Shown piece by piece: positions 523 through 17,622 of a stretch of 46,028 nucleotides of DNA. Source of the DNA: Actinomycetes bacterium (GTDB lineage Bacteria > Actinomycetota > Acidimicrobiia > Acidimicrobiales > Ilumatobacteraceae); NCBI GenBank assembly GCA_027491335.1, contig JAIXWJ010000054.1:1-46028 (forward strand), written 5' to 3'. Every line of letters begins with the position of its first letter. Position 1 is the first letter of the stretch. The position numbers and the translations under genes are program-made. A model generated the notes under the pieces. The model saw nothing but the letters and a program-made list of their open reading frames with translations. It had not been told where the DNA came from and ran no database searches.

Positions 523-620
523 CAAAACGATGTGAAGGCCCCGAAGTGTGCGAACCGGGATTCGTCCCCTCTGAGCAGGGCGAACGCACACATCGATGGA
601 TTCCGGTCGTTTCGAAAGGC

Positions 621-3784: not shown

Positions 3785-4432
3785 TCACACGTCCCAGTCG
3801 TCGCGAAGTCGATCCACGATCTTTTGGGCGTGACCGAGCGCGATCGAGGCCCGTTCGCGGCGGATTCCCATCTTTCGGGCGGCATCGGTGACGCTGTAGC
3901 CCTCCAGATTGACCAACATGAACACTTCCCGCTGTATCGGATTCAACGCCGTGAGCATGGCTTGCGTCATCATCTGATGCTCGTTGTCGCGAGCCACGTC
4001 GACGCCGGAGTCGAGTTTCTCGATGAGTGACAGCCCATCGGAGGAATCGTTGTCACCGTCCTCGAAATCCTTCGCGGGAACCGTGTGCGTCGGTGCATAA
4101 CCGGAAGGTCCCCACCCGGCTTGATCCAGATACTCCATGAACATGGACTTGTCGATCGCGTTGGCATCGAACGGTCTCAGCGGAGACTGACGGTGCTGCG
4201 CCCGGATGAACTCGATGAAGCGTTGCTTGGTGGCCACGCTCACGATGGCGGCCGGCGAGTAGGCCTCCATCAGCTTGGGTCGATTGAGCAACCACTCGCA
4301 GAAGTACTGGGTGATGTCGTCGGCTTCCTGGACGCGCACCTCGCCGCGCTGAATCATGCGGCCGAGTCGACGGGCGAGCAGTTTCAGGATCTGCTCGAAG
4401 TAGTCGTCCTTGTCGAACGGATACGGATTCAT
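3785..4432 (-). CDS. Atypical sigma-70-like protein (sigma-like 1)
   Basis: The 215-residue product resembles an ECF-sized sigma factor. An N-terminal helical segment (EADDITQYFCEWLLNRP) is followed by a region-2-like part with KQRFIEFIRAQHRQ. After a poorly conserved acidic middle, region 4 is clear: LNPIQREVFMLVNLEGYSVTDAARKMGIRRERAS, with the regular LTPxQREVF...A...G helix-turn-helix pattern. The ATG at 4432 has AAAGGA seven bases upstream; a longer frame to 4828 overlaps the macrodomain gene and is discarded. It is the third gene of a minus-strand run after sigma-like 2 and the MerR-macrodomain gene. The target promoters are unknown, and a degenerate regulator that no longer binds core polymerase is possible. 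Confidence 0.7.
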   Translation of the reverse strand: MNPYPFDKDDYFEQILKLLARRLGRMIQRGEVRVQEADDITQYFCEWLLNRPKLMEAYSPAAIVSVATKQRFIEFIRAQHRQSPLRPFDANAIDKSMFMEYLDQAGWGPSGYAPTHTVPAKDFEDGDNDSSDGLSLIEKLDSGVDVARDNEHQMMTQAMLTALNPIQREVFMLVNLEGYSVTDAARKMGIRRERASIALGHAQKIVDRLRDDWDV

Positions 4433-4561
4433 GGGATGTCCTTTCGCGGGGAAGCCGGGGTGATTGGAGTGGTTGGAGTTGTCGAAGGTGTTGGCGGGAG
4501 TGCCCTTTCTGTGATGCGGTGTCGGTCGACACCGGTGTCTGGTGGACTCGGCAAGAACGAT

Positions 4562-4581
4562 CGAGACGATCGAAAACGTGC
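4562..4581 (-). promoter_or_regulatory. Shared 20-bp element, copy A (upstream of sigma-like 1)
   Basis: Plus-strand CGAGACGATCGAAAACGTGC lies between the MerR-macrodomain stop and the sigma-like 1 start, about 130 bp before that start. It matches copy B (16559-16578, immediately upstream of the ADP-ribosylglycohydrolase-phosphatase gene) at 18 of 20 positions, in the same orientation to the downstream gene. A common operator or promoter element is inferred. Confidence 0.5.
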
Positions 4582-4599
4582 GCGAGAGCGTGGCCCCGG

Positions 4600-5766
4600 T
4601 TACCCGGTGCTGCGAACGCGTTGCAGGGCGTCGATCATCTGATCGAAGGCCCGTCGGCTGATGGTGCGAAAGCGCACCACCTGCACGTCGGTGGCGGTGT
4701 CGAGCAACGTTCGGAACGCCACTTCGAACACGTGCGGGCTGGGGAATCCGAAGATGCCCGATGAAATGGCCGGGGTCACCAACTGATGAATCCCTCGTTC
4801 GTCGGCGGTCGCCAAAACGGCTCGCCACGTACGGGCCAGCAACTCGTCCTCACCGTGCATCGACACCGTATGGCCGCTCTTGTCGTACGGACTCATCCAG
4901 CGAGGACCATGGGCGTGAATGATGCCCTCGAATCCGATTCCTGCCCCCCGACCGGCGCCGGTGAACACCGCGGTGCCCGGAGCGAGTTTTCTGAAGCCGG
5001 CCGCGGCGAGTTGTTGACGTTCGCGACCGAGTTCGTCGTGCCCGCACACTTCCCAGATGCGCGCCGACGCACCGCCTCCGGCGGTGACCTCGGCATCGGA
5101 GGAGTTCACGATGCCACCGCTGAACGGCGACGCGATGTCGGCCAATTCGATTTCGATTTTCAAGGTGCCGGTGTTGGCCGGCATGGACGCGGCGGCCAAC
5201 GGAGCGAAAAATGTGTTCACCACTCGCACGAGTTCGCGCACCGCGTCCTCGGACGGCGCGACGCCGGTGCCCTGCAATGTGACGTCCTCACGCAACGTCA
5301 CGGTCCACGACTTCTCGACCCGAGGCGTGCTGAACGAGGAGTCGATCGACGACAGGACGATCTCATCGGTGATCGGGCTCATCATCGAGTTCAGTTCGGT
5401 GAAGAGCATCTTGCGCACCGATAGGTCGTCGTCGTGCGACGGACGCGAGCTCTCGCGAATCTCGCGACCACCCAGATCGGCCACGGTCTTGCCGGCGTCC
5501 AGTTGGCCCTTGATGTTGACCAAAGTGGCCACGTCGTCGTCCGTGAAGAAGCGCTGATTGCCCTTGTGCGTCAGCGAGCGTTGCCGGATCTCGGGAAGCT
5601 GGTTGACCATCAACCCTTTGGTGAACAAGCCGCGCTGAATGTAGAACCGCACCGCGCGCACCGTGAGATCACCGATGTTGAGCGAGCTCGCTCGTGCATT
5701 GGCGCGCTCGACCAACTCGGTGATGTCGAAGTAATCGACGTCGGCGTCCGGCTCGGAGTTCTTCAC
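4600..5766 (-). CDS. MerR-type HTH / macrodomain fusion protein
   Basis: The product is 388 residues, numbered here from the in-frame GTG at 5778. Residues about 15-105 form a MerR-like winged HTH (LTVRAVRFYIQRGLF, then FFTDDDVATLVNIKGQLDAGKTV). Residues about 118-200 are an unrecognised linker domain. Residues about 205-388 are a macrodomain, with GGIVNSSDAEVTAGGGASA at 221-239 (the ADP-ribose-binding NxxN...GGG loop), PGTAVFTGAG, IIHAHGPRW and AISSGIFGFP (337-346). Macrodomains bind or hydrolyse ADP-ribose derivatives, so an ADP-ribose-responsive transcription factor is the inferred role. The GTG at 5766 is preferred because AGGAG lies 11 bases upstream; GTG 5778 would overlap the sigma-like 2 stop by 10 bp. 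Coupling to sigma-like 2 is almost certain. Confidence 0.82.
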   Translation of the reverse strand: MKNSEPDADVDYFDITELVERANARASSLNIGDLTVRAVRFYIQRGLFTKGLMVNQLPEIRQRSLTHKGNQRFFTDDDVATLVNIKGQLDAGKTVADLGGREIRESSRPSHDDDLSVRKMLFTELNSMMSPITDEIVLSSIDSSFSTPRVEKSWTVTLREDVTLQGTGVAPSEDAVRELVRVVNTFFAPLAAASMPANTGTLKIEIELADIASPFSGGIVNSSDAEVTAGGGASARIWEVCGHDELGRERQQLAAAGFRKLAPGTAVFTGAGRGAGIGFEGIIHAHGPRWMSPYDKSGHTVSMHGEDELLARTWRAVLATADERGIHQLVTPAISSGIFGFPSPHVFEVAFRTLLDTATDVQVVRFRTISRRAFDQMIDALQRVRSTG

Positions 5767-5768
5767 GC

Positions 5769-6371
5769 TCAGTTCCACTCCTGAATGAACACCGACATGG
5801 CGACCCTGGCTTTGCCCAGCTCACGCTGAGTCCACTCCCGCTTGTAGCCCAACATCTTGGCCACCTCCACCACCTTGTACTGCAGTCCTTCGACCAAGAC
5901 GAAGATCTCCTGTTGCGCGGGAGTCAACACGCCCAAGGTGCGGCTGATGAGGTCGTTGTCCTGAATGCGCTCCAACCAAACCTCGTCACCGGTGAGGGTG
6001 TCGCCGAAGGTGAATTCGTCGCCCTCGTCGTCGGTGAACAGAACATGGTCCAGGGACCAAACGGCATTGCGAACCTTGCCGCTCTTGGGGTCGTACTTGC
6101 CCTGGGGGAGTTGACGGCCCTGCTGACGGTGCCAGTCCGTCAGGCGGTTGGCGAAGCTCGCCGACGCCAGCGCTGCCGGAACGTAGCGCTCGATCAGATC
6201 CGGTCGACCCCAGGCCCACAAGAGGAAGTACTGGACGAAGTCCTCGGCATCCTCGAGGAGCAACTGGGTGCGCTTGGCCGTCATACGGAACAAGATCGGT
6301 TCCAACTCGGCCAAGTAAGCGTTCACATCGTTCGGCTCGCTCAGTGCGGTGATTTTCTGGTTCGTTGTCAT
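5769..6371 (-). CDS. Atypical sigma-70-like protein (sigma-like 2)
   Basis: The 200-residue product is related in layout to the sigma-like proteins at 3785-4432 and 10821-11372. Region-2-like sequence EDAEDFVQYFLLWAWGRPDLIERYVPAALASASFANRLTDW parallels the equivalent part of sigma-like 1 (DDITQYFCEWLLNRPKLMEAYSPAAIVSVATKQRFIEF). Region 4 reads LTPAQQEIFVLVEGLQYKVVEVAKMLGYKREW. The ATG at 6371 has GAGGAAAC at good spacing, so it is preferred over the ATG at 6389. It is the first gene of the run sigma-like 2, MerR-macrodomain, sigma-like 1. A strong promoter candidate lies about 160 bp upstream. Its partner promoters and any anti-sigma factor are not evident. Confidence 0.7.
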   Translation of the reverse strand: MTTNQKITALSEPNDVNAYLAELEPILFRMTAKRTQLLLEDAEDFVQYFLLWAWGRPDLIERYVPAALASASFANRLTDWHRQQGRQLPQGKYDPKSGKVRNAVWSLDHVLFTDDEGDEFTFGDTLTGDEVWLERIQDNDLISRTLGVLTPAQQEIFVLVEGLQYKVVEVAKMLGYKREWTQRELGKARVAMSVFIQEWN

Positions 6372-6527
6372 GTTGTCGTTTCCTCTCATTGTCTCGTTCG
6401 GGTCTGGCTGGTTCTTGTCGAGCTTCGGATGGCGCTGGTCGCCCCGTTGATCTGGACGGTGGTTCGGGTTGGTCGTGCCGGTTGTTCTCCTTTGTGTTGC
6501 GCGAGGGCCGACCCCGCGGTGAGTGTC

Positions 6528-6556
6528 AGGTTAATCACCTAATCTATACCTGTCAA
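6528..6556 (-). promoter_or_regulatory. Sigma-70-type promoter for the sigma-like 2 / MerR-macrodomain operon
   Basis: On the minus strand a perfect -35 hexamer TTGACA (6556-6551) is followed after exactly 17 bases by TAACCT (6533-6528), a fair -10 hexamer. It points to the sigma-like 2 gene and lies in the AT-rich gap. This suggests the housekeeping sigma factor starts the operon. Confidence 0.55.
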
Positions 6557-6643
6557 GCACCCGACGCTACCTAGCATCTTGACACCCGACAACCTCCGAA
6601 AGAATTTTGTTGTCATTCTTTGTTGGCAAATGTATTGTAGCAC

Positions 6644-6655
6644 ACGGGTGTGACA
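6644..6655 (-). promoter_or_regulatory. TGYCACACCCST box, third copy
   Basis: The minus strand reads TGTCACACCCGT, matching the first twelve bases of the boxes at 10729 and 16702 except at two positions. A TACAAT hexamer follows four bases later on the same strand. This copy is the weakest of the three and may be chance. Confidence 0.25.
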
Positions 6656-6692
6656 CAGATCGAATCCGGCGCATCACCCCTGCTCAGGGGCC

Positions 6693-7508
6693 TCACCAAG
6701 CGTTCGGATCGCCAAAATCGTCGTCGAAGCCCTCATCGGACTGCTCATCATCCGGATACTCCTCCAGCGGGCACGGACCCTCGTGCGCATCGTGGACCTC
6801 CAGAAAACAGGCCCATTCGGCCCACACGGAGTCGTTCGGCCACATGGCGCGTCGCACCAGCGGGAACCGCACATCGAGGGGGAGCAACTCGACCAAATCC
6901 ACCACGCAATCGATGGCCAGATCGTCATGGGAGGGGTGAAGATCGCAGCGTTGGGTGATCTCGCCCACCTCGTCCAGAGAGTTGTACACGCTGGCCTGAA
7001 CGAACCATTCGCCCGCCGGCGCATCGTGGATGAGGCGCGCGGCATCGGCGACGTGGGCCACCACGTCGTAGGTGGAGGAGTAGGCCGGTTGTTCGTAGAC
7101 CCAATCGCACGGATGAACGAAACCGCACTCGCGACACGCCACCCGTTGGAATTTCCGGTCGACCACGGCGTCGGCCCGCCAGCCATGGTCGATGAGGATG
7201 TCCTGAAGTCGTTCGGGGACCTCACCGAAATGTCGATCGGGTCGGCCGCACAGAGTCGCGGACCAGCGCCGACGATCGCCGCGAATACGTAGGTGTTCGT
7301 TGGTGAAATACGCGTCGGGTCGCGGAAAGACGTCGATGACGACGGTGCCTTCGTACCACCGTGTGAGTCGGTCCATTCCGTCGACGATGTGGGCCAGGAC
7401 GTAGTCGGGGGTGCGGTCGGCGGACGTGACGTACCACCGGCGCAACACGTTGGCCTCGCTCACGTCCCAGTCGAGAGCACGATCGATGATGTCTCGAGAA
7501 AGTCGCAT
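6693..7508 (-). CDS. Uncharacterised protein with a Cys cluster and acidic tail
   Basis: The 271-residue product is not a family I recognise. It starts with RLSRDIIDRALDWDVSEANVLRRWYVTS. In the middle it has CRECGFVHPC (about residues 125-134) and a later CDLHP, which could form a zinc-binding knuckle. It ends in a very acidic tail rich in Asp and Glu. No signal peptide or membrane segment is visible, so it is probably cytoplasmic. The ATG at 7508 lies just before a GC-rich 22-bp tandem duplication. It is on the same strand as the sigma-like/macrodomain operon but separated from it by 321 bp. The function is unknown. Confidence 0.7.
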   Translation of the reverse strand: MRLSRDIIDRALDWDVSEANVLRRWYVTSADRTPDYVLAHIVDGMDRLTRWYEGTVVIDVFPRPDAYFTNEHLRIRGDRRRWSATLCGRPDRHFGEVPERLQDILIDHGWRADAVVDRKFQRVACRECGFVHPCDWVYEQPAYSSTYDVVAHVADAARLIHDAPAGEWFVQASVYNSLDEVGEITQRCDLHPSHDDLAIDCVVDLVELLPLDVRFPLVRRAMWPNDSVWAEWACFLEVHDAHEGPCPLEEYPDDEQSDEGFDDDFGDPNAW

Positions 7509-7526
7509 GGGGTCGCGATCATGCCC

Positions 7527-7570
7527 GGGGGGTGGCGGGAGGTTCGGTGGGGGGTGGCGGGAGGTTCGGT
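7527..7570. repeat. Two perfect 22-bp tandem copies
   Basis: The G-rich unit beginning GGGGGGTGGCGGGAGGTTCG is present at 7527-7548 and again, identical, at 7549-7570. It fills the gap between the stop of the small membrane-protein gene and the start of the Cys-cluster gene, so it sits in the upstream region of the latter. The G-runs could form a quadruplex; a recent slippage duplication is the simplest origin. Confidence 0.9.
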
Positions 7571-8025
7571 TAGCTCGTGAACACCAGCTGGATCATCACG
7601 GCGCACACGACTCCGCGGACGGTCCAGGCGATGGTTCGAGGCCAGTTCGTGAGCACCAAGCGACGCCCGATGGACTCGTCGGGGGACTCGGCCATGCGAG
7701 CGTGCAGGGGCACCGACAACAGAACAGTGCTGCCCAGCGCCACGGCCAACAACACCGCGTTCGCCCACACCCAACCGGCCGCGATCGCATCGGGTCGGCG
7801 CACCAGCAGCGCCAGCGTGGTGAGGCCCTCCACGGCCATGGGCAGACCCACCACGGTGGCGGTCCGACGTTGGTGTTCGAGGGCGATGGGTCGCGCTCGA
7901 TCCACCGGCACCACGGCCAGCAACGGATAGTGCACCCGCTGGACGAACCAGATGAGTCCGACCATGGTCCAGGTGGCCACCGCGTTCAGCAACAACAGCA
8001 GGTGATCGACATCGTTTTGGTCCAC
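7570..8025 (-). CDS. Small integral membrane protein
   Basis: The 151-residue product has four hydrophobic segments: about residues 8-30 (LLLLLNAVATWTMVGLIWFV), 55-75, 82-105 and 130-150. Conserved-looking polar residues occur between them (WFVQRVHYPLL, ALEHQRRT). It resembles small unannotated membrane proteins found in many bacteria, and I cannot assign a function. The start is a GTG at 8025. It diverges from the coiled-coil gene at 8086 across 60 bp and runs toward the 22-bp tandem repeat. Confidence 0.7.
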   Translation of the reverse strand: MDQNDVDHLLLLLNAVATWTMVGLIWFVQRVHYPLLAVVPVDRARPIALEHQRRTATVVGLPMAVEGLTTLALLVRRPDAIAAGWVWANAVLLAVALGSTVLLSVPLHARMAESPDESIGRRLVLTNWPRTIAWTVRGVVCAVMIQLVFTS

Positions 8026-8085
8026 GGGGCACCGTATGTCCGAATCTCCCGTGTCTTCACATCGTGGAGCGGCGAGACTGGACGC

Positions 8086-9675
8086 ATGAGACCGGTGTAC
8101 TGCCTACGACTCGACGGGCCCGTGTGGCCGTCGGCGCAGCAGGCCACCATGCGCGAGATCACTTTGCGTTGGCTGGAGAAGGAGTATCCCTCCGACGAAC
8201 GCGAGGCCGGACTGTCGGTGCGCATCGACGACGACGACCCCGACCGCTGGTGGCGGTGCAGCATCGATCGACCTGTGGGTGACGGGGCCATGGCTGGTGT
8301 CACCATCACGCTGGCCACCACGATGACCAACTCCGAGGCGGCCACCACGCTCGAGATTCGCTGCTCGATCACACCGGGTGGTCGTCGCGTCACCCGCAAG
8401 CCACCGACCACGAGCGTGATGTCGTTGCGAGTTTTGGCACACGAGTTGGTGAACGCCTGCGCCATGTACGACGCCACCATGCGCTTGCGGGCCACCGCGG
8501 CGGTGGTCGACATCCCCGATGGGGCCGAAGCGATGGCGGCGTTCTGCGACGCACCGAGTCGAGCGTTGCCGGTGATCATCGAATCGGTGCCCGACGGCGG
8601 CAAAGCCGTTTTCGAATCCGGCCGTTTGTCGCTTTCTCTCACCGGACTCGCGCACATCGTGCAGATACATGGCGATGCGGCGCGCGTGGCGTTCAATCGC
8701 ATGTACGGCAAAGACATCCTGTTGCGTCAGGGACTCACCATCGTGTGGCCCGGTGGCGCCGAACACTCCTCGTCCAACGGCACGGGACTTTCGGTCGATG
8801 CGGCCAAGACCGAACGAGGACGCGTCATCGACATGGTCACCGAATCGGCCGCCGGCTCGCTCGCGCCGTTGCGCGCGCCATTGTTCCGACGTCGTTCGAA
8901 CGAGTCCATCGTCGAGGTGGCCGAGTCATCCATCGGCTCGGCGTCCACCTCGTCGGCGCCCACCGGGGCACCAACATCGACACCCACGACGCCGGGCAAG
9001 GAGTCGGGTCCGAACGACCCCGCCGCCGATCCCGAGAACGTTCCGTGGTCCGAGTATCGAGCGGTGCTCGAGCAATGGCAGGAGGACCTCAACCGTCTCG
9101 ACGATCTCGAGCAGGCCATGGCCGAGGCGGATCGGGTAATCGCCGAGAAGCAGGACCTGTTGGAGAATCGCAACGATCTGGTGGAGAGCCTGGTGTTGAT
9201 GAACACCGAGCTCGAGGTGCGTCTCGGACGTTCGCCGCAGGGATTGCGCGCCGTCAGCGCCATCGATGCGGTGAATCAGGCGTCGCGCATCTGCGAACAC
9301 CTCACGTTCCATGACAATGCATTCGTCACCGCGCGCGAGTTGGAGAACATCGACGCCAACCGTCTGTTGCAGGACCTCGTGCGCCTGAACGTGGTGGCCG
9401 CCGACTGGCAGACCGGGCGAATCAACAACGCCTCGCTCACCATCGCCTGTCGAAGCTTGGGACTGAATTACGCCGCCGGAGTGTCCGACACGGCCGAGTA
9501 CAAGTTCGGCAGCGACTACGCGTTCGCGTGGCGGGGTCGCACCGAGTTCGCTCTCGCGCACATTCGCAACGGCAAGGGGGCCCGCCTGTATCGGGTGCAT
9601 CTCTTCTTCGACGACGACGCCCACCAGGTGGTGGTGGCCTACGTCGGCCGACATTTGCGCGGCAAACACGGCTGA
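8086..9675 (+). CDS. Uncharacterised multidomain protein with central coiled coil
   Basis: The product is 529 residues. Residues 1-270 form an unrecognised mixed domain (RPVYCLRLDGPVWPSAQQATM...). Residues about 285-318 are a Ser/Thr/Pro-rich linker, and about 325-380 a heptad-rich coiled coil (EYRAVLEQWQEDLNRLDDLEQ...). The C-terminal domain (about 405-529) ends in FAWRGRTEFALAHIRNGKGARLYRVHLFFDD and YVGRHL. That strand-rich ending resembles C-terminal modules of uncharacterised proteins I associate with conflict-type loci, but the match is from memory. It is the first of a plus-strand run with ARPP-1. No signal peptide is seen. The function is unknown. Confidence 0.72.
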   Translation: MRPVYCLRLDGPVWPSAQQATMREITLRWLEKEYPSDEREAGLSVRIDDDDPDRWWRCSIDRPVGDGAMAGVTITLATTMTNSEAATTLEIRCSITPGGRRVTRKPPTTSVMSLRVLAHELVNACAMYDATMRLRATAAVVDIPDGAEAMAAFCDAPSRALPVIIESVPDGGKAVFESGRLSLSLTGLAHIVQIHGDAARVAFNRMYGKDILLRQGLTIVWPGGAEHSSSNGTGLSVDAAKTERGRVIDMVTESAAGSLAPLRAPLFRRRSNESIVEVAESSIGSASTSSAPTGAPTSTPTTPGKESGPNDPAADPENVPWSEYRAVLEQWQEDLNRLDDLEQAMAEADRVIAEKQDLLENRNDLVESLVLMNTELEVRLGRSPQGLRAVSAIDAVNQASRICEHLTFHDNAFVTARELENIDANRLLQDLVRLNVVAADWQTGRINNASLTIACRSLGLNYAAGVSDTAEYKFGSDYAFAWRGRTEFALAHIRNGKGARLYRVHLFFDDDAHQVVVAYVGRHLRGKHG

Positions 9676-9763
9676 CGACGCCTCATCGTCGTTCGCACAC
9701 TTTCCGCATCAGCGGTCGTTCCTTCACTCGTGACCCGACCCGGGTCGAGAAGGAGCACCGAAG

Positions 9764-10672
9764 ATGTCCACCATCGAACTTCGCCGAATCGCCATCGGCC
9801 AACCCATCACCAAGCGTGGTGTCGCGATCTTTCCCGTGTTTCGACCCGGAACGACGAATCCCCCTCTCGGGTTGATTCGTCCCGGTGACGGTTTCTTCGT
9901 TCGCGAGAAGGCCACACCCACCGTGCCGATTCTCGAAGTGGAGAACACCAACGTCGATCCCGTGGTGCTGTTCGCCGGCGAGACCTTGGAAGGTGGCCGG
10001 CAGCAACGCGTGTTGAATCAGAGCGTCATCATCGGTGGTCGGAGCGTTTCGGACATTCCGGTGTCGTGCGTGGAACAGGGTCGCTGGCATGGTGACCACT
10101 CGTTTCGCGGCGTGGGAGAGATCGCCCCGCCGTCGATTCGTCGTTCGGCGAATCGACGTGACCAAGGCGACGTGTGGAACGAGGTGGAGAGCTTGCTGAG
10201 TTCGCACCGCTTGTTGTCGCACACCAGTGCTCTCGACGAGTACTTCCGGTCTCGTCCCTCGTCGCACGACGTGGCGGTGGTGGACGAGGTGGCATCGTGG
10301 GGCCCGCTTGCCGAGCAGACGGGAATCGTGGTCATGAATCGGGGCCGGGTGGTCTCGGCCGACGTATTCGGCGAGGCGAATCTGTTGGTGTCGATGTGGG
10401 AGACCCTCGTGCGGTCGGCCTTCGTCACCGGACCCGAGACGTCGTCGAGGTCCGCAACGTCATCGGGCTCGAGCAACCGAGCCGATAAGGCCCTCAACTT
10501 TTTGCGCCGGTTCGCACGGGAGTTGCGCGGACCGCTGGACAGCTCCGAACCTGGCCGCTCTGAATTTGGACAGGGTGTGTGGCGTCAGGTGTCGACCGAT
10601 CGAGTGACCGGGCAGGCCCTGACCCTGGATGGCCAGTTGGTGCATGCCTCGGCCTTTCCCGCCCATCACTGA
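9764..10672 (+). CDS. ARPP-1 domain protein (ADP-ribosylglycohydrolase/phosphatase-associated family)
   Basis: The 302-residue product carries the hallmark of the ARPP-1 family (ARG and Rhodanese-Phosphatase-superfamily-associated Protein): VPILEVENTNVDPVVLFAGE, then GETLEGGRQQRVLN (72-85) and PVSCVEQGRW (99-108). The family is named for genomic association with ADP-ribosylglycohydrolases and phosphatase-superfamily proteins, and such a fusion is encoded at 15086-16552. It is predicted to act on ADP-ribose or NAD-derived compounds; no reaction is proven to my knowledge. The ATG at 9764 has AAGGAG nine bases upstream. It follows the coiled-coil gene by 88 bp and precedes sigma-like 3 on the same strand. 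Confidence 0.82.
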   Translation: MSTIELRRIAIGQPITKRGVAIFPVFRPGTTNPPLGLIRPGDGFFVREKATPTVPILEVENTNVDPVVLFAGETLEGGRQQRVLNQSVIIGGRSVSDIPVSCVEQGRWHGDHSFRGVGEIAPPSIRRSANRRDQGDVWNEVESLLSSHRLLSHTSALDEYFRSRPSSHDVAVVDEVASWGPLAEQTGIVVMNRGRVVSADVFGEANLLVSMWETLVRSAFVTGPETSSRSATSSGSSNRADKALNFLRRFARELRGPLDSSEPGRSEFGQGVWRQVSTDRVTGQALTLDGQLVHASAFPAHH

Positions 10673-10728
10673 ATGATCGCCGGTCGATGATTGCCGGAAA
10701 GGGCCGATGAGCAGGGCTTGGGAAACCG

Positions 10729-10754
10729 TGCCACACCCCTCTGTCACCCTTGGG
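10729..10754 (+). promoter_or_regulatory. Shared TGCCACACCCCT box upstream of sigma-like 3
   Basis: TGCCACACCCCT is followed by TCAC at +15 and CTT at +20. The same layout recurs at 16702-16727, with 20 of 26 positions identical. Both copies are intergenic and sit roughly 70-90 bp before a start codon on the same strand. A common promoter or operator is possible. Confidence 0.4.
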
Positions 10755-10820
10755 CGTCGGCATTCGCCGACAACCACAACTACCGACACCGGACACCCCG
10801 GGTCGCAGAAGGAGTCCATC

Positions 10821-11372
10821 ATGAACAGCCCCAAGTACACCAACCGCGAACTGGCCTTCATCAAGGAGGCCCTTGTCCGCATGTCGCGGCGCCTGAGCAA
10901 CTGCCAGCTGCCCGTCGCGGTGCGCGACGAGGTGGCCAGCGCCATGGATGAGTACCTGGCGAGGAAGGTCAGCGACCTCGCCGTGCGTTATCCGTCGGGT
11001 GACATCTTCGTCGATGCGGTGTTCGGCACCCGATGCATCGATGCCTTGCGCACCTGGCGGGCTCAACGTGGCGAGGGGGCGCGGGGCGAACGCATCGTCG
11101 ACATGTTCGACGCGGCGGTCGCCGACACCCACGCCGACATGCGGTTGCCCGATCCTCTCGATCTGTCCTTTGTTCAACTTGAAGCCAGCCTGATCAAGCG
11201 ACTCGGTGAGCGCAAGGGGCGACTCACCTTCCGTGTGAAGGTGCTGGGCGACGACACCACCGAGGCCGCGAACGAGTTCGGCATTTCGCGCACCCGGGCC
11301 GCACACATCATCAGCGAGGCCCTACGTGAACTGGGTGATGACGACGGGTTCATGGGGTCATGGACGGCATGA
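10821..11372 (+). CDS. Atypical sigma-70-like protein (sigma-like 3)
   Basis: The 183-residue product has the same size and order as the two sigma-like proteins at 3785-6371. A region-2-like stretch (SGDIFVDAVFGTRCIDALRTWRAQRG, about residues 57-82) parallels their A..F..R..D..R.Q segment. The C-terminal HTH (DDTTEAANEFGISRTRAAHIISEALREL) stands where region 4 would be. Region 4 is the least typical of the three, so recognition of a -35 element is uncertain. The ATG at 10821 follows AGAAGGAG. The stop overlaps the next gene's ATG (ATGA at 11369-11372), implying coupled translation with the unknown protein downstream. Confidence 0.6.
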   Translation: MNSPKYTNRELAFIKEALVRMSRRLSNCQLPVAVRDEVASAMDEYLARKVSDLAVRYPSGDIFVDAVFGTRCIDALRTWRAQRGEGARGERIVDMFDAAVADTHADMRLPDPLDLSFVQLEASLIKRLGERKGRLTFRVKVLGDDTTEAANEFGISRTRAAHIISEALRELGDDDGFMGSWTA

Positions 11373-12139
11373 CCCCGGCCATCCGGTTCGCGGTGTCGTA
11401 TCGGTCGCTCTCGGATTCGGCGCTCGTCTCGTGTGCCGACTCCGAAGTGGCCGACGCACTCGGCATTCCCGTGGACGAGGTCGATCAACAACAGATGGAC
11501 CATGACACCACCGTGGAATCGATCGGTGTCGACCGGGGCGACTCGCTCGATCGCTATTTCCTTGCCGCTCAGGTGTTGGGTGTGTCGATGCGTAGTCGAC
11601 ACGGATTGGTCGATCACGTGATGCCGCCTCGATTGCACAACACGCTCATGTCGTTGGTTCATGATTCGTTGGTTCAGGACTCGGGGGAGACGCACGAGGA
11701 CTCGTTCTCCGCGCGTCGCACCATCGCGTGGGTGCCGGTGAGTGAACTGGCGTCTCCATGGTCCGCTCCTCACTTCGTGCGTCGGCCGGCGCACGAAGTG
11801 AAGGCCGTGTGTGCCGCACTCGACGACCTGTCCATCGCGTTCTCGAGTGGTGCGTCACGACCTTCACCGCATGATTCTTGGCCCGACATCGCCACGTCGC
11901 TGCGGTGCCTACTCGATGATCTCGCCGACGCGGATGGATTACCGGTTCCCCTTGCCGTGTCACGCACCGCCCAGGCTCTCGTGACCGCTCCCGAGTCCCT
12001 TCGCGATGTCACCGTTCCCGTTGGCGAAGCGGTGTTCGATTTGGCGACCGCCGAATCGTGGGATTCCGCCGCGAGCATTCTCCGCGACGCTCGCCGGCGA
12101 CTGGTGCGCCGTCGAACGGGCCGCGGCCCGAACGTGTGA
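11369..12139 (+). CDS. Uncharacterised protein, paralogue A (candidate ARPP-2-like)
   Basis: The 256-residue product has no motif I recognise, but its N-terminal half parallels the protein at 14304-15059: YRSLSDSAL against YRVLSDTVL, then DHDTTVESIGV against DADTTVEWAPV, and AAQVLGVSMRSR against GFQQLHASVRPR. Both have mostly helical C-terminal halves. Sigma-like 3 ends within its start codon, and the tandem WYL regulator follows after 73 bp. Position and pairing with ARPP-1 and the glycohydrolase raise the possibility of the associated family called ARPP-2, which I cannot confirm. An upstream in-frame ATG at 11360 is an alternative start. Confidence 0.65.
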   Translation: MTPAIRFAVSYRSLSDSALVSCADSEVADALGIPVDEVDQQQMDHDTTVESIGVDRGDSLDRYFLAAQVLGVSMRSRHGLVDHVMPPRLHNTLMSLVHDSLVQDSGETHEDSFSARRTIAWVPVSELASPWSAPHFVRRPAHEVKAVCAALDDLSIAFSSGASRPSPHDSWPDIATSLRCLLDDLADADGLPVPLAVSRTAQALVTAPESLRDVTVPVGEAVFDLATAESWDSAASILRDARRRLVRRRTGRGPNV

Positions 12140-12212
12140 AGCACGAACGTAACGAGCAAAACAGTGTGAGCTCGCCGCTGGCGTCGACCGACCGCTCGGC
12201 GACAATGCCCCG

Positions 12213-14207
12213 ATGAATACTCGGGCCATCCGACGTCGGGTCAATCCGATCGAGCGTGTTCTCAACTTGTTGACCCTGTTGTCGCGGGCCGAGACGCCCA
12301 TGACCCGTGAGCAGATCGTGGCGGCCATGTCGCGAGGCGAGTCCCCGTACCCGTTGGAAGAAGATCCACAACGTCAACTGTTCACCAGCGACAAGAACGT
12401 GATTTCCCGCGATCTGGGTATCCCGGTGCGCACCCAAGCCGGCGTCGGCGACGAGGCGGGCCAGACCCGGTACTACATCCGCGAAGAGGACATGTGCGTT
12501 CCCGACGTGGCGCTCACCGACGACGAGTTGTCCATTTTGTCGTTGGCGTTGGAATCGCTGCACCACACGGTGCCTCAGGCCGGTGAGGCCTTGATGAAGT
12601 TCGACGGGCATCTCGGATCATCGCCTCTCAGCATGAACATCGGATTGCCGCTGGCGGTTGTGCGTATGTCCGAAGCGGCCAAGCAACGTCAGGCGGTGCG
12701 GATCGCCCATTCGGGCACCGACATCGAGATCGAACCCGTTCGCGTGGTTTTCGACAAGGGAACCTGGTACGTGATCGCTCTGCATCGCGGCGACAAGAAG
12801 TTGAAGGCTTTGCGTTGTTCGCAATTGTCCGACGAATTCGAGGTCTTGGACGACGAGTCCACACCCGGACGTGCCACACCCGGACGTCCCACACCCGGAC
12901 GTCGACGACTGAGCGATCGTGAACTTCGTCGACTGCTGCATGCCGTCGAACAAGACGACTTCGTGGCCAGCGTTCGCGTGGATCACCTCGGCGCCTCGTT
13001 GTCGTGGTGGGATCGGCGAGTGATCGAGACCGAACCTCTCACCGACGGCGGAATGCGCATCAGCGTGGCCGTCGGTGATCGAGCGCGGTTCCGTGGATGG
13101 CTGCTCGGTTTGGGCACCCACGCGGTCGTGGAAGGTCCGAGCGAATTGCGTGATCACGTTGTGGAGTGGCTCGACGCCGCATCACGAACGGTCGACGTGG
13201 TTCCCATCCCGCCCACTCGGCCCGCAGCACCTTCCACCCGGCCGGGGCCGCGACCGTTGGGAGAGCGACTTCAGCGCCTTCTTTCCATCCTTCCCTGGTT
13301 GCGCAACACCACGTCCACACCCATCTCGGTGTTGGACGCTCGGTTGGGTGTGAGCGAGGACATGTTGTTGAAGGATCTGGAGGCGGCGTCCATGTGCGGT
13401 GTCCCTCCGTACACCAGCGACGCGTTGTTCGACTTCTGGGTGGAAGGTGACACGGTTCATTTCTGCGGAGACGGAACCGTGTCCGGACGCTTTCGTCGCA
13501 GTCGATCACTCATGACGCGAAGCGTGAAGCTGACGCCCCGTCAGGCAACGGCGGTGTCGTTGGGTTTGGCATCCATGTCGGTGGCCCTCGATGACGCACA
13601 ACGAACCACCGGCCCTTTCGCCTCTCTGACGCGCAAGGTGGAAGAAGCACTGGGTGAGATTCCCGTCGAGATTCGTTTGGACGAGGCCCCGCTCATGGTG
13701 GAGATGAACGAGGTCGTTCGTGATCACCGTGAGATCAAGGTCACCTACGTGAACGGCGAGGATCAGATCAGCGAGCGCGTGTTGCATCCGCGGTTGGTGT
13801 TCGTCGACAAGGGCGAGACGTATCTAATGGCCGACGACGTGTCGGTCACCCCGACCGAGATCGATCGGGTGTTCCGCGTGGATCGCATTCTCGACACCGA
13901 GGCGACCGGGCGCACGTTCGAGCATCGCGCGGCCGAATGGTCGGGGTGGGGCTTTCGTGGCGACGCCACCGAGGCCATCTTGTATATCGCGCCGGGGAAC
14001 GGCTGGCTCGTCGATCGACTGGCGTCGAAGGCGTGCGTTGTCAACGACGACGACTCCATGTTCGTGTGGGTGGATGTGGTCAGCCGCACGTGGTTGGCCA
14101 AGCTGTTGGTGCGTTGCGGACATCCATCGTGTGTGGTGTCGCCCGCCGAGTTGCGCGACGTGGCCCCCGACTGGGCCCGCACGGTGCTCGAACAATACGA
14201 CCGCTGA
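12213..14207 (+). CDS. Tandem HTH-WYL transcriptional regulator (fused PafB-PafC-like)
   Basis: The 664-residue product is two HTH-WYL units in one chain. Unit 1 has an HTH (IERVLNLLTLLSRAETPMTREQI), the D-K-x-x-x-R-DLGIP segment typical of PafB, and a WYL core (about 165-215) ending GTWYVIALHRGDKKLKALR. Unit 2 has a second HTH (about 345-400) and a WYL core (about 510-570, TYLMA in place of WYL). Fused PafBC proteins activate mycobacterial DNA-damage genes and are thought to sense ligand through WYL. The proteasome genes usual for pafBC are absent; the neighbours are two related unknown proteins. The linker between units has a triple 15-bp repeat. Local control of the ADP-ribose cluster is plausible. 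Confidence 0.85.
   Translation: MNTRAIRRRVNPIERVLNLLTLLSRAETPMTREQIVAAMSRGESPYPLEEDPQRQLFTSDKNVISRDLGIPVRTQAGVGDEAGQTRYYIREEDMCVPDVALTDDELSILSLALESLHHTVPQAGEALMKFDGHLGSSPLSMNIGLPLAVVRMSEAAKQRQAVRIAHSGTDIEIEPVRVVFDKGTWYVIALHRGDKKLKALRCSQLSDEFEVLDDESTPGRATPGRPTPGRRRLSDRELRRLLHAVEQDDFVASVRVDHLGASLSWWDRRVIETEPLTDGGMRISVAVGDRARFRGWLLGLGTHAVVEGPSELRDHVVEWLDAASRTVDVVPIPPTRPAAPSTRPGPRPLGERLQRLLSILPWLRNTTSTPISVLDARLGVSEDMLLKDLEAASMCGVPPYTSDALFDFWVEGDTVHFCGDGTVSGRFRRSRSLMTRSVKLTPRQATAVSLGLASMSVALDDAQRTTGPFASLTRKVEEALGEIPVEIRLDEAPLMVEMNEVVRDHREIKVTYVNGEDQISERVLHPRLVFVDKGETYLMADDVSVTPTEIDRVFRVDRILDTEATGRTFEHRAAEWSGWGFRGDATEAILYIAPGNGWLVDRLASKACVVNDDDSMFVWVDVVSRTWLAKLLVRCGHPSCVVSPAELRDVAPDWARTVLEQYDR
12859..12903 (+). 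repeat. Three tandem 15-bp repeats in the WYL regulator
   Basis: The unit CCACACCCGGACGTN occurs three times (12859-12873, 12874-12888, 12889-12903), encoding three TPGR-type pentapeptides in the linker after the first WYL unit. Its frame-preserving length suggests recent slippage. Confidence 0.9.
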
Positions 14208-14303
14208 TCGGAGTCATTCGGCTCGCATTTCGATGTGAGTACATGTGAGCCATTTCGCAACGTTTTTCGTGTGTCGGGGGCGGGAAACTGGCAACATGGA
14301 GGT

Positions 14304-15059
14304 GTGAAGGCGCAACTGACGCTGAAGTACCGCGTTCTGTCGGACACGGTGCTCGGTTTCGTGGAGGGGATGACCCCCGACGAGGGTGAAACCGCGCCGA
14401 CCCCCGACATCTCGTCTTCGGTCGTGCGCGATCGATTGGATGCCGACACCACGGTGGAGTGGGCGCCCGTCGGCGGTGTGGACGTGTTGGTCGGATTCCA
14501 ACAGTTGCATGCCTCGGTTCGTCCGCGGGTGGAAGGGTTGCCCGGTCTCATCGGGGTCTTGGTGACCGAGTTGATTCTGAAGGCCAAGGACGACGAGTCG
14601 GTCTCCGACATGTCGGGTCCGGCCGCCATTCTTCGCACGTTCGAGATGCGGCACACCATCGACATCGCGATGCTGGTGAAGCCAACGGCGGTCACCGAGC
14701 GTCGCCGAGCGACCCGCGCCACCACCAAGGGCGCCGAAGCCGCGCTGCATCATCTGATCGATCGGGCCGAGATCATCGAGGGCGAGGACCCCACCTCGCG
14801 CCGGGCTTTGTCGGCTTTGCGCGACTTAGCGTCGTCCATCGGTGACGGCGACGGTTTGTCGAGTGAACGCACCGCCGAGGCGACGTTCCAAGCCATCACC
14901 AATTCGGGCATGCGCAGTCGCCAACACAAGGACATTCTCCTGCGCGTGGTGGACGACCTACGTGATCAGCGCACATGGCCTCGGGCCATCGAGAACGCGA
15001 TGGCGGCGCCGGATCCCGAGGTTCTCTCGGAACTCGACGCCGCCAAAGACGACGACTGA
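14304..15059 (+). CDS. Uncharacterised protein, paralogue B
   Basis: The 251-residue product resembles the protein at 11369-12139 in its N-terminal half (YRVLSDTVL, DADTTVEW, then Q-x-L-x-x-S-V-R-x-R). Its own C-terminal half is helical and charged and ends in an acidic tail. No catalytic motif is recognised. The start is uncertain: GTG at 14304 has GGAGG immediately before it, and in-frame GTGs exist at 14271 and 14235. It follows the WYL regulator on the same strand and converges on the glycohydrolase-phosphatase gene with 26 bp between the stops. The pair surrounding the regulator probably arose by duplication and belongs to the same system. Confidence 0.62.
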   Translation: MKAQLTLKYRVLSDTVLGFVEGMTPDEGETAPTPDISSSVVRDRLDADTTVEWAPVGGVDVLVGFQQLHASVRPRVEGLPGLIGVLVTELILKAKDDESVSDMSGPAAILRTFEMRHTIDIAMLVKPTAVTERRRATRATTKGAEAALHHLIDRAEIIEGEDPTSRRALSALRDLASSIGDGDGLSSERTAEATFQAITNSGMRSRQHKDILLRVVDDLRDQRTWPRAIENAMAAPDPEVLSELDAAKDDD

Positions 15060-15085
15060 CCCGACGCGCCGGTCGGGCACAACGG

Positions 15086-16552
15086 TCAGATCAGTGCGTT
15101 TCGTTCCCAGGTGTCGCGCAGGAACTCGGTGAACGTGGTGTTCCATGGCTGATACCGATGCCAGCGAGCTTCGAGCCAGTCGTGCGCCTCGGCCTCGGTG
15201 AACGAATAGCGCCTCATGGCCCACGCCTTCAACACCAAACCCGTGCGACTGCGACCACCGTGGCAATGCACGAGCACCCGATGACCATCTGCCAACAGTG
15301 CATCGACGGCCGACACGGCATCCTCCACTGCGGCCAGCAGGTTCACGTTCTCGTCGTGGCCCACCTCGTCGCGCATGTACAACTCGCGACGCACCGTGTG
15401 ATGGTCGAGGCGCCCGTCGATGAGACACAACGAGACCGTGGCGAAGGCACCGTCGCACTCGATGGCCCCGCCGAGGTCCGAGGCGAACACCGGCACCTCG
15501 TCGTCGACGCGTTGCGGATGAGCCGGGGCCTCGAGCCTGGTGCGGCTGGCTCGGTCACGACCCATCAACAGGCGCGCCGTGTCCAGCAGATCGGCGTAGC
15601 GATAACTGTTTCGACCCGACGGTGTGCAGAACGAACCGTGCACGACGGTCATCCATCGCGACGGAATGCCCTGCACCGAATGCACGGCTCCGACCAACGC
15701 TCCGGCCACGCAGGCCACGGTGTCGGTGTCACCACCGAGATCGATGGCCAATCGCATCGCCGACGCGAAGTCGCTCGACTCGCGCAACGCCCACACCGCC
15801 TGTGCGAGACAGATGATGGCGGCCCCGTTGGAGTGATCAGCATCGCGATTCGGTTCCCAGTGTGGCGACAGCAGACGAGCGAACTCGGCCCGATGCGTGT
15901 CGTCGACGAACGTGAGCACGTCATCGATCTGCGACAACGGATCGGCGCCCAGGATGGCCCGACGACACAATTCGGTCCCGATGGCCGCCGACCAACCAGC
16001 GAGCGGATCGAAGTGCGTGAGCTCGGCTTGTGCTCGGGCCACCTTCATGACGTCGGCCGTGTCGTGACCGACGAAGGCCACGGCGATGGCCCAAGTGCGC
16101 ATGAGAGCACCGTTGCTGGCGGTGCGACCCCACGAACGATGAACGTCGGCGGCCGCTCCGTGACGACTCTCGTGAGACAGAGCTCCGGCGGTGGTGGTGC
16201 CGCAGTCGGTGGCTTCGGAACGCCAGGCACGGAATCGCGCCCAGAGATCGTCGAGATCGAGGCCACCGCAGGCCAGAAGTGATTCGGCCAGGGCCAGCAT
16301 CATCTGGCTGTCGTCGGTGAACTCGCCCGGCGCCCAATCGAAGGCGCCCCCGCCCACCATCTCGGTGGACGTTCCGAGCAACGGCGCGGGGAACCGCGCC
16401 GAGTAGGCCCCCGCGGGTCCGAACTCGAAGGGTGCCCCGAGAGCGTCTCCGACGCAGGCCCCGATCAGGGCACCGATGGCGCGCTGTTGGGCGTCCGCAC
16501 CGATGCGAACGGGGTTGGCGGTGAAGGTGGAGGTGATGTGTGTGTTGTTCAT
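15086..16552 (-). CDS. ADP-ribosylglycohydrolase / dual-specificity phosphatase fusion
   Basis: The product is 488 residues. Residues about 20-335 form an ADP-ribosylglycohydrolase (DraG/ARH type): GALIGACVGDALGAPFEF, metal-binding FTDDSQM (78-84), SNGALMR (146-152), and GGDTDTVACVAGALVGA (273-289) with IPSRW. These Asp/Thr positions are the binuclear Mg sites, so the enzyme looks active; the family removes ADP-ribose from proteins or small molecules. Residues about 350-485 form a Cys-phosphatase with HCHGGRSRTG (429-438), a full C-x5-R loop. The fusion may remove ADP-ribose and phosphate from one substrate, for example an ADP-ribose phosphate. The ATG at 16552 has no clear ribosome-binding site, and the shared 20-bp element lies just upstream. 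Confidence 0.93.
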   Translation of the reverse strand: MNNTHITSTFTANPVRIGADAQQRAIGALIGACVGDALGAPFEFGPAGAYSARFPAPLLGTSTEMVGGGAFDWAPGEFTDDSQMMLALAESLLACGGLDLDDLWARFRAWRSEATDCGTTTAGALSHESRHGAAADVHRSWGRTASNGALMRTWAIAVAFVGHDTADVMKVARAQAELTHFDPLAGWSAAIGTELCRRAILGADPLSQIDDVLTFVDDTHRAEFARLLSPHWEPNRDADHSNGAAIICLAQAVWALRESSDFASAMRLAIDLGGDTDTVACVAGALVGAVHSVQGIPSRWMTVVHGSFCTPSGRNSYRYADLLDTARLLMGRDRASRTRLEAPAHPQRVDDEVPVFASDLGGAIECDGAFATVSLCLIDGRLDHHTVRRELYMRDEVGHDENVNLLAAVEDAVSAVDALLADGHRVLVHCHGGRSRTGLVLKAWAMRRYSFTEAEAHDWLEARWHRYQPWNTTFTEFLRDTWERNALI

Positions 16553-16558
16553 GGGGAC

Positions 16559-16578
16559 CGAAACGATCGGAAACGTGC
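16559..16578 (-). promoter_or_regulatory. Shared 20-bp element, copy B (before the glycohydrolase gene)
   Basis: Plus-strand CGAAACGATCGGAAACGTGC ends six bases before the start codon complement at 16550-16552. It matches copy A at 4562-4581 in 18 of 20 bases. Its position would put it over the ribosome-binding region or core promoter of a leaderless message, where bound protein would block expression. Confidence 0.5.
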
Positions 16579-16615
16579 AAAGTGTGCGCGCGAGGCCCGA
16601 TGGTCACCGTGGCGC

Positions 16616-16819: not shown

Positions 16820-17203
16820 GTGGCAGCGAAGAAGTCCAACAAGTCGCAGACCAACCAGAAGAAGACCTCTGGTTCGGGTACCCGGCCGACACGGGCAAAG
16901 GTGGAAAACCCGCCCGCATCGACACCCTGGAAGCGTCGTTCGTTCTGGGTGGTGGCCCTCGAGGAGATCCGACTGAATCCTCGGGTATGGCACCGGGCCG
17001 ATCGCCTGTACACGCGAGCCACGGCGGCTCAGATCGCCAGCGACTTGCGTTCCGTCCATCGGCGGGGAGCCGAGAACGTTCGCGTGAAGGGCGTCGTCGA
17101 CGGTGAGGCGTGGGACGCTCGTTGGGAGTTGAGCCCCGATGGCCCCGACGACCAATTCGCCATCTGGGTGATGTATCTCGGTCGGACGGAGCAGTCGGAC
17201 TGA
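16820..17203 (+). CDS. Small conserved-looking protein, paralogue of the gene at 17213
   Basis: The 127-residue product has a basic, low-complexity N-terminus (residues 1-38, Lys/Ser/Thr rich). A compact domain follows: RRSFWVVALEEIRLNPRVWHRADRLYTRATAAQIASDLRSVHRR, then GEAWDARWELSPDG and IWVMYLGR. The same pattern occurs in the convergent neighbour. Basic tail plus a small domain could indicate a nucleic-acid-associated protein, but the function is unknown. The start is GTG at 16820. The stop is only nine bases from the neighbour's stop. Confidence 0.65.
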   Translation: MAAKKSNKSQTNQKKTSGSGTRPTRAKVENPPASTPWKRRSFWVVALEEIRLNPRVWHRADRLYTRATAAQIASDLRSVHRRGAENVRVKGVVDGEAWDARWELSPDGPDDQFAIWVMYLGRTEQSD

Positions 17204-17212
17204 ACGTTCGAT

Positions 17213-17569
17213 TCAGCCGGCCTCGGCCAGGTTGAACTTCTCTCCGATGAATCGCACCCACACCTCGCAATCACCGGGGGCACCGATGGTGGTGGGGATC
17301 CACTTGCTCTCCCACACTTCGCCGACCTGAAATCCGCGCACTCGGTGCACCGAGGTCGGCCTCAGATGCGCGCAGCGCACATCGCTGGCGATCTGTTGGG
17401 CGGTCTTCTTCGTGTACAGCTTGGGAATGCGGTACCAGTCGCCACTACCGCGGGCTTCGTCGAGCGAACGTTGCCAGAACGAACGGCGACGATGACGGCG
17501 GGGGACCGAACCGGCGGCGGCGCGGCTGACGTTGGAGACGGAACGGGACTGGGTGGTGGAAGCGCTCAT
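17213..17569 (-). CDS. Small conserved-looking protein, paralogue of the gene at 16820
   Basis: The 118-residue product shares the domain of its convergent neighbour: RRSFWQRSLDEARGSGDWYRIPKLYTKKTAQQIASDVRCAHLR, GEVWESKWIPTTIGAPG and VWVRFIGEK. The first 30 residues are Ser/Arg rich and basic. Shared landmarks are RRSFW, the W-x-R dyad before LYT, AQQIASD, GE-x-W-x-x-x-W and the final W-V/I-x-x-x-G. The ATG at 17569 is chosen over a longer frame to 17740, which would run into the Nudix gene. The function is unknown; a tail-to-tail duplicated pair is unusual. Confidence 0.65.
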   Translation of the reverse strand: MSASTTQSRSVSNVSRAAAGSVPRRHRRRSFWQRSLDEARGSGDWYRIPKLYTKKTAQQIASDVRCAHLRPTSVHRVRGFQVGEVWESKWIPTTIGAPGDCEVWVRFIGEKFNLAEAG

Positions 17570-17622
17570 GCATTCTTGAACGAGCGACCGGATGCGAAGT
17601 GTGCGCGATCGGAGCGTCCGAC

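Follow-up and report, generated by a model that had tools for sequence, protein, structure and literature searches.

A putative ADP-ribose-processing island with ECF-like sigma factors and a shared promoter-like motif in an acidimicrobial genome

Genes and sites of the locus

We analyzed a stretch of 46,028 nucleotides from an uncultured bacterium of the Ilumatobacteraceae (hereafter, the window), which is contig C52 of its genome (G000; 2.52 Mb, 94.6% complete). It encodes an ADP-ribosylglycohydrolase (ARG) fused to a phosphatase, ARPP-1, a macrodomain fused to a MerR-type helix-turn-helix (HTH), a PafBC-type regulator, three small proteins that resemble extracytoplasmic-function (ECF) sigma factors (sig1, sig2, and sig3), and two further proteins, unkA and unkB. 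Every gene that a preliminary description of the window had named is present. We group the genes into modules: M0 is the NYN gene and the histone-deacetylase-like (HDAC-like) gene; M1 is sig1, MerR-macro, sig2, and CysP; and M2 is ARPP-1, unkA, the PafBC-type gene, unkB, and ARG-phosphatase. Domains were called at the Pfam cut-offs, and also with TIGR02937 and PADLOC, and pairs of profiles were compared with hhalign. The genes and sites are as follows:

52..516, minus strand: NYN-domain protein (M0; NYN PF01936, 1.9e-6)
525..552, minus strand: promoter-like motif before the NYN gene (14/16; weight-matrix score 24.8)
585..612, plus strand: promoter-like motif before the HDAC-like gene (13/16; weight-matrix score 19.9; 8 nt to ATG)
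621..1547, plus strand: HDAC-like protein (M0; Hist_deacetyl 3.5e-30, scored on the longer open reading frame (ORF) 510-1547)
3785..4432, minus strand: sig1, small ECF-like sigma (M1; Sigma70_r4_2 3.8e-7, above cut-off)
4555..4582, minus strand: promoter-like motif before sig1 (14/16; score 25.6; 122 nt to ATG)
4600..5778, minus strand: MerR-macro, MerR-type HTH fused to a macrodomain (M1; Macro 7.8e-16, MerR_1 4.2e-5)
5769..6371, minus strand: sig2, small ECF-like sigma (M1; TIGR02937 1e-9, 38.2 bits against a cut-off of 42.9)
6693..7508, minus strand: CysP, Cys-cluster protein (M1; CxxC, VHP, and HxxHxGxC kept in 8 relatives)
7570..8025, minus strand: hydrophobic protein, backbone, outside the island (no Pfam match)
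8086..9675, plus strand: coiled-coil-like protein, backbone, outside the island (no Pfam match; PADLOC HEC-07 3.7e-17)
9694..9721, plus strand: promoter-like motif before ARPP-1 (16/16; score 28.8)
9764..10672, plus strand: ARPP-1 (M2; PF20208 8e-54)
10821..11372, plus strand: sig3, distant sigma-family member (no Pfam match; hhalign to the sig1/sig2 profile)
11360..12139, plus strand: unkA, candidate sigma partner (M2; paralog of unkB)
12213..14207, plus strand: PafBC-type tandem WYL regulator (M2; HTH_PafC 5.7e-16, WCX 7.2e-17, WYL 2.4e-15)
14235..15059, plus strand: unkB, candidate sigma partner (M2; relatives 3' of a sigma gene in G441, G420, G023, and G390)
15086..16552, minus strand: ARG-phosphatase, ARG fused to a dual-specificity-type phosphatase (M2; ADP_ribosyl_GH PF03747 4.6e-59, DSPc PF00782 1.1e-10)
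16561..16588, minus strand: promoter-like motif before ARG-phosphatase (15/16; score 28.7; 8 nt to ATG)
16820..17203, plus strand: SFWQR1 small protein (present also in relatives that lack the island)
17213..17569, minus strand: SFWQR2 small protein, the motif-bearing copy (motif 8 nt before ATG)
17578..17605, minus strand: promoter-like motif before SFWQR2 (15/16; score 24.9)

Both halves of ARG-phosphatase score above the Pfam cut-offs. Motifs that we take to be typical of these domains are readable in the window proteins: TDD and GDTDT (ARG) and HCxxGxxRT (phosphatase) in ARG-phosphatase, and Nxx(N/D)...GGG and ISSGIFG in the macrodomain of MerR-macro. In ARPP-1, the motif VSCVEQGRW contains a cysteine and a glutamine, and a Cys and a Gln of ARPP are named by Iyer et al. 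(2022, PMC9503650). The fusion of MerR and macrodomain was found, among the matches listed in 396 actinobacterial genomes, in the window's genus only; the listed matches other than its own begin no earlier than model position 174, which places them in the macrodomain. The tandem WYL protein has the architecture of PafBC (HTH-WYL-WCX in tandem) in one fused gene. It is a paralog and not the pafBC locus of this genome: a separate pafB-pafC pair lies on contig C62 and is about 28-31% identical to it.

A promoter-like motif precedes six genes

A repeated element was first spotted by eye in upstream alignments of ARPP-1, ARG-phosphatase, and sig1. This motif, CGCACACTTT-N12-TCGTTC, lies ahead of sig1, ARPP-1, ARG-phosphatase, NYN, the HDAC-like gene, and SFWQR2. 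We then scanned for CGCACACTTT-N11-13-TCGTTC, requiring 14 or more matches in 16. The window gave 5 sites, all before base 17,606; first-order Markov shuffles (n = 20) averaged 0.05, and a sample of 20 stretches from elsewhere in the genome (347,858 b, about 14% of it) gave none. We also built a weight matrix on 14 sites before ARPP-1, ARG-phosphatase, and sig1 in the genus, leaving out the NYN, HDAC-like, and SFWQR2 sites. All six window sites score at least 19.9 and the next score in the window is 13.2, while the best score in the sampled part of the genome is 14.9 and random 250 b pieces of it reach 11.1 at the 99.9th percentile.

The distance from the motif to the ATG is exactly 8 nt at NYN, HDAC-like, ARG-phosphatase, and SFWQR2 (for NYN, this is counted to the second in-frame ATG; another ATG is 2 nt away). 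This spacing fits the −35 and −10 elements of leaderless genes. Across the loci of the genus (303,161 b) there are 62 sites with scores of at least 14, including the training sites, and an ORF start is 7 or 8 nt away in 32 of these. In G479 and G477, which have no ARPP-1, the motif is 7 nt ahead of the PafBC-type gene instead.

A weak copy of the motif also occurs inside the PafBC-type gene, at 13484(+) (score of 11.0 in the window; 16.7 in G103, G480, G478, and G472). It sits right at an ATG within the gene's second half and may reflect a coding constraint or an internal promoter.

The sigma family and its neighbors

The preliminary description had listed three atypical sigma-like proteins and two related proteins, those that we term unkA and unkB, and the comparisons bear this out. 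sig1 and sig2 are 27% identical, and sig3 matches the sig1/sig2 profile (hhalign probability 94.5%, E 7.7e-8); unkA and unkB are paralogs (97.4%, E 1e-11). At E <= 1e-9, the sig1/sig2 profile finds the family in 8 of 360 genomes of the class (the window's own, G023, G353, G283, G441, G420, G223, and G390). CysP was found in 1 of 296 class genomes (its own) and unkB in 3 of 345 (its own and, weakly, G441 and G420). Thus, a broad occurrence of these proteins apart from the ADP-ribose genes, which the preliminary description had named as an outcome that would speak against it, was not seen in the sampled genomes of the class.

In four of the seven other genomes, ARG(-phosphatase) or ARPP-1 lies within 1.1 kb of the sigma gene; these belong to two of the four genera concerned (g29 and g65, but not g23 and g36). 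As a rough estimate of chance, about 0.3% of the positions in a 3 Mb genome would have an ARG or ARPP-1 gene within 2 kb. Four of the seven, again not counting the window's genome, have an unkA/B-like gene 3' of the sigma gene. In G441 and G420, the order is ARG, sigma, unkB-like, and AAA ATPase (the ARG of G420 carries the phosphatase and the ORF of G441 is the ARG part alone). In G390, the order is ARG-phosphatase, sigma, and a half-length unkB-like ORF, which was recognized by eye (21% identity; no profile match at E <= 0.01). G023 has vWA, sigma, and an unkA/B-like gene; G223 has sigma and then vWA; and G283 has ARPP-1 1.1 kb from sigma, along with a divergent Nudix-HTH gene. Because sigma stands next to unkB and ARG-phosphatase outside the genus, the M1 genes appear to be tied to the M2 genes.

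The stop codon of the sigma gene overlaps the start of the unk gene in G390, in G023, and at sig3/unkA in the window, where the second ATG of unkA overlaps the sig3 stop (ATGA, 11369-11372). In G441 and G420, the two genes are at most 10 nt apart. Such an overlap of stop and start is a frequent arrangement of sigma/anti-sigma pairs.

The motif is found with the sigma family outside the genus as well. Sites with scores of at least 14 lie before ARG in G441 and G420 (19.3) and before ARPP-1 in G283 (15.2), and in G223 there is a motif (14.0) 7 nt before the ATG of the vWA gene beside sigma. In contrast, 15 stretches around ARPP-1 without this sigma (L067-L081) have no site of at least 14 upstream of ARPP-1 or ARG; the sole such site in them lies at a distance of more than 8 kb from ARPP-1 and is not followed by a gene. 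By locus, the motif is present at 4 of 7 sigma-bearing loci and 0 of 15 sigma-less loci, although G441, G420, and G283 represent a single genus, of another family. The preliminary description had proposed dedicated sigma-like factors, and the position of the family beside ARG(-phosphatase) or ARPP-1 and of a common motif ahead of ADP-ribose genes agrees with this.

The gap of 320 b between sig2 and CysP is unusually A/T-rich, with TTGACA-like words at window 6572-6640; sig2, which has no motif, may have a promoter of its own there. The AAA ATPase after ARG-sigma-unkB in G441 and G420 matches PF00004 and AAA_lid_6 and has an unassigned N-terminal half (L209:436-1845(-); L210 from 6925(+)). Between ARPP-1 and the sigma gene of G283, the ORF L063:1226-1801(+) is, by eye, a candidate RelE-like protein. 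G223 has a relative of the HDAC-like protein (38%) about 7 kb from the sigma gene (L222:17195-18007(-)). The unkB frame of G478 is broken early (L148:13855-14844; an ORF of 72 amino acids, compared to about 270 in relatives), which is either a pseudogene or an assembly error.

ARPP-1 is found in 36 of 345 class genomes (35 above the family cut-off). We looked at 19 stretches from 18 of the 36 genomes. The neighbor of ARPP-1 is ARG-phosphatase in G010 and G173 and a more distant ARG ORF in G427. Nudix-HTH regulators, as recognized with one query, are present at 5 of the 15 stretches L067-L081. Relatives of other window genes appear too: HDAC-like proteins are encoded near ARPP-1 in G173 (50% identical; distance of 3.2 kb) and G345 (37%; 0.9 kb), a NYN relative is about 0.1 kb from ARPP-1 in G427, a NYN fragment is 0.9 kb from ARG in G441, and an SFWQR relative adjoins ARPP-1 in G010. 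As HDAC-like proteins are widespread, the link to HDAC is weak if taken alone.

Gain and loss within the genus

We compared the locus across 24 genomes of the genus (the window's and 23 others), many of which are fragmentary, so absences are soft. The isolate names of three of the relatives suggest a freshwater origin. The fused PafBC gene is present in 14 of 24 (counting matches at E <= 1e-99), MerR-macro in 10, and ARG-phosphatase in 14. Where one contig spans both slots, M1 and M2 occur together in six genomes (G000, G103, G478, G143, G477, and G479) and are missing together from six loci (G022, G125, G135, G473, G041, and G114:C189), with no mixed cases. M1 adjoins the DEAD gene, and M2 comes after the coiled-coil gene. 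Wherever contigs reach, the island is surrounded by the same backbone: PNPOx, DEAD helicase, the coiled-coil protein, the SFWQR small proteins, NUDIX, and PhyH. Crotonase with CoA-transferase and the hydrophobic protein belong to the backbone in some lineages.

The preliminary description had treated 3785-16552 as one cluster, and this needs to be amended in two ways. First, not everything within it belongs to the island. The hydrophobic protein is retained in the island-less G022, G125, G135, and G473; the coiled-coil-like protein is retained in these and in G041; and sig3 has distant counterparts, 22-31% identical, in G022, G125, G135, and G473, so that the sig3 lineage is part of an older backbone. 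The island genes mostly appear and disappear as a set, and the backbone genes between them remain. Second, the unit extends past these bounds and consists of at least three inserts with backbone genes between them: NYN, HDAC-like, and SFWQR2 lie outside 3785-16552 yet bear the same motif, and NYN and HDAC follow the gain and loss of the island, except in G114. M0 occurs in G000, G103, G092, G478, G056, and G114, and the loci of G041, G022, G125, and G135 lack it; it is missing from 4 of the 5 island-less loci whose slot is visible. SFWQR2 is missing from the G041 and G114:C189 stretches.

Content varies among islands as well. M2 lacks ARPP-1 and unkA in G479, G477, and G474, and the G103 locus yielded no CysP. 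In G114, M2 lies on a separate contig, C54, which shares 89% identity with G481 and has a coiled-coil fragment that is 69% identical to the genome's other copy, on C189; the G114 bin may therefore be mixed.

In a tree of backbone proteins (midpoint-rooted, for drawing only), the island-less G022, G125, G135, G473, and G069 all fall on the same side of the deepest split, and the neighbor of G041 is G056, at 99% identity over 718 columns. M1 is present in G056, whose contig stops before the M2 slot. In the whole of G041 (97% complete), we found neither MerR-macro nor the fused PafBC, and neither ARG-phosphatase nor ARPP-1; the 19.9 kb of its locus contain no motif. These two genomes show a clean presence or absence of M0 (about 1.6 kb in G056, 82 b in G041) between flanks that are 98.1% and 95.0% identical. 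Their DNA (L159, L166) is 95-98% identical around PNPOx-DEAD and 73% identical beyond M1. Since the M0 flanks are nearly identical and the region beyond M1 is not, the change in M0 was a separate event from that in the rest, and the latter was perhaps a replacement of the haplotype by recombination.

Comparison with known systems

ARG-centric systems were described by Iyer et al. (PMC9503650, section 3.8) as combinations of ARG, enzymes of the rhodanese-phosphatase superfamily, ARPP, and WYL or Nudix regulators, also with chaperones (TY-Chap, vWA, SseB) and an occasional Macro, and without a coupled ADP-ribosyltransferase or sirtuin. They were predicted to counter viral ADP-ribosylation, and RNAylation was suggested for accessory domains. 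The window likewise has ARG, a fused phosphatase (DSPc), ARPP, and a WYL regulator, with Macro nearby, and gain and loss between close relatives is common to both. Thus, the core of the island is an already described (predicted) kind of system; the preliminary description had matched the combination of sigma, MerR-macro, and WYL to no described system. The window adds the sigma family, the promoter motif, the MerR-macro fusion, the PafBC-type fused WYL pair, unkA/unkB, CysP, and the NYN and HDAC-like genes. The words "sigma," "HDAC," and "NYN" are absent from the main text of PMC9503650 and "merr" occurs only within an author's name; in the open-licence literature, we found nothing on the sigma circuit, MerR-macro, unkA/B, or the NYN or HDAC-like additions. 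None of the predicted chaperones (TY-Chap, vWA, SseB) was recognized in the island by Pfam, although vWA is beside sigma in G023 and G223.

The locus also resembles operons of ECF sigma factors with their anti-sigma factors: it has small sigma-like proteins, a next gene that overlaps or nearly so, and a site before sig1. Unlike in such operons, the partner matches no anti-sigma family in Pfam, the sigma scores are weak, and no ECF group was assigned. Lastly, PafBC is a WYL-domain regulator of the DNA damage response with a tandem HTH-WYL-WCX arrangement, and natural fusions occur (PMC6789036). The window protein shares this arrangement; it differs in being a paralog that sits among ADP-ribose genes.

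Interpretation

We lean toward the reading that this is an island of the ARG-centric kind, for removing and processing ADP-ribose, that is expressed by its own ECF-like sigma factors. ARG is a known domain, and here it is predicted to strip ADP-ribose from macromolecules; the fused phosphatase and ARPP-1 would process the released product, and the macrodomain would read or remove ADP-ribose, judging from their domains. We propose that sig1, sig2, and sig3 guide RNA polymerase to the motif. The messages of ARG-phosphatase, NYN, HDAC-like, and SFWQR2 would be leaderless or nearly so, those of ARPP-1 and sig1 would have leaders, and the motif before sig1 would create a feedback loop. As relatives of unkA and unkB directly follow sigma genes, we propose that these proteins hold the sigma factors in check. 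MerR-macro might report ADP-ribose and the PafBC-type protein might report a signal of nucleic-acid damage; the coupling to an ADP-ribose signal, perhaps related to stress or DNA damage, that the preliminary description had suggested is likewise putative. The least certain step is that the set might answer hostile (e.g., phage) ADP-ribosylation of host molecules.

Several observations weigh against this reading. sig2 matches sigma region 4 only below the Pfam cut-off, sig3 has no match, and region 2 is seen only below the cut-off, in relatives (L220, L210, and L209). For a dedicated sigma, it is awkward that G353 has sigma with Nudix-HTH at a contig end and ARPP-1 on another contig, and that neither ARG nor ARPP-1 was seen in the stretches around sigma in G023 and G223. 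The sigma-bearing G390 and G023 have no motif of strength 14. Conversely, G114:C189 retains two motif sites with no sigma of the family on that contig, and G022, G125, G135, and G473 each have one motif, before SFWQR2, with only the distant sig3 relative (the contigs of G069 and G482 end before the motif slot). G114:C189 is also a partial case, with NYN and HDAC present and M1 and M2 absent. A structural model of unkB from four sequences (predicted local distance difference test, pLDDT, 75.3; predicted template-modeling score, pTM, 0.48) combines an N-terminal sheet of five strands with a C-terminal half made of helices. Fold comparison, in which the N-terminal part was barely covered, gave generic bundles and no anti-sigma fold, which speaks neither for nor against the anti-sigma role. 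No ADP-ribosyltransferase was recognized among the window proteins that were scanned with Pfam (a subset of ORFs), nor was a sirtuin. Finally, few independent events of gain or loss are involved, and the G041 haplotype may be a product of recombination.

A more specific proposal, which we consider possible but doubtful, is that the island is a switch gated by ADP-ribose. unkA and unkB would be a new family of cytoplasmic anti-sigma factors, MerR-macro would sense ADP-ribose or an ADP-ribosylated protein, and hostile ADP-ribosyltransferases would free sig1-sig3 to act at leaderless CGCACACTT-N12-TCGTT promoters in the three dispersed inserts. If so, this would be a dedicated sigma regulon for undoing ADP-ribosylation.

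A second possibility is that the motif is a promoter for the housekeeping sigma or another sigma, activated by MerR-macro or the PafBC-type protein, and that the small sigma-like proteins act elsewhere or do not work as sigma factors. The weak scores of sig2 and sig3 would make sense, as would the motif on G114:C189, and PafBC acts through the housekeeping holoenzyme (PMC11804915). Nevertheless, this seems unlikely because the motif is present without MerR-macro or the fused PafBC in G022, G125, and G135, because the stretches of G441, G420, G283, and G223 combine the motif and a sigma of the family without either regulator, and because the 15 ARPP-1 loci without the sigma lack the motif upstream of ARPP-1 or ARG.

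Third, and less likely still, the island could be a DNA-damage regulon, in which the PafBC-type protein senses single-stranded DNA and drives repair, with removal of ADP-ribose as one of several steps. PafBC-type domains are indeed present, PafBC is activated by single-stranded DNA (PMC11804915), and macro and ARG domains can act on ADP-ribose on nucleic acids (PMC9503650). However, the gene is a paralog and a separate pafB-pafC pair exists, with no match to the motif in the 14 kb around that pair, and the sigma-bearing ARG loci of G441, G420, and G390 showed no fused PafBC gene.

Last, it is very improbable that these are chance neighbors, hitchhiking in a variable region with no regulatory tie: the locus does vary (G041 and G056 diverge beyond M1 far more than in the other flanks) and the independent events are few, but another family also has sigma, unkB-like, and ARG(-phosphatase) genes side by side, and the common motif stands at six places in the window.

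ARG/ARPP systems have so far been a prediction without a worked-out control circuit. The sigma family, the partner that is coupled to it by stop and start codons, and the sharp motif make that prediction testable by simple means. The motif also allows the regulon to be listed, including the NYN, HDAC-like, and SFWQR genes, which PMC9503650 does not link to such systems.

Neighboring genes and records

The coiled-coil-like backbone protein (8086-9675) is present in every locus of the genus whose contig reaches that far. It resembles two candidate-defense families of PADLOC, HEC-07 (3.7e-17) and NsnC (5.3e-10). One of the stretches that we compared, L085, comes from a public record titled Bifidobacterium breve, yet it is syntenic with the window's genus and is probably a mislabeled metagenome-assembled genome.

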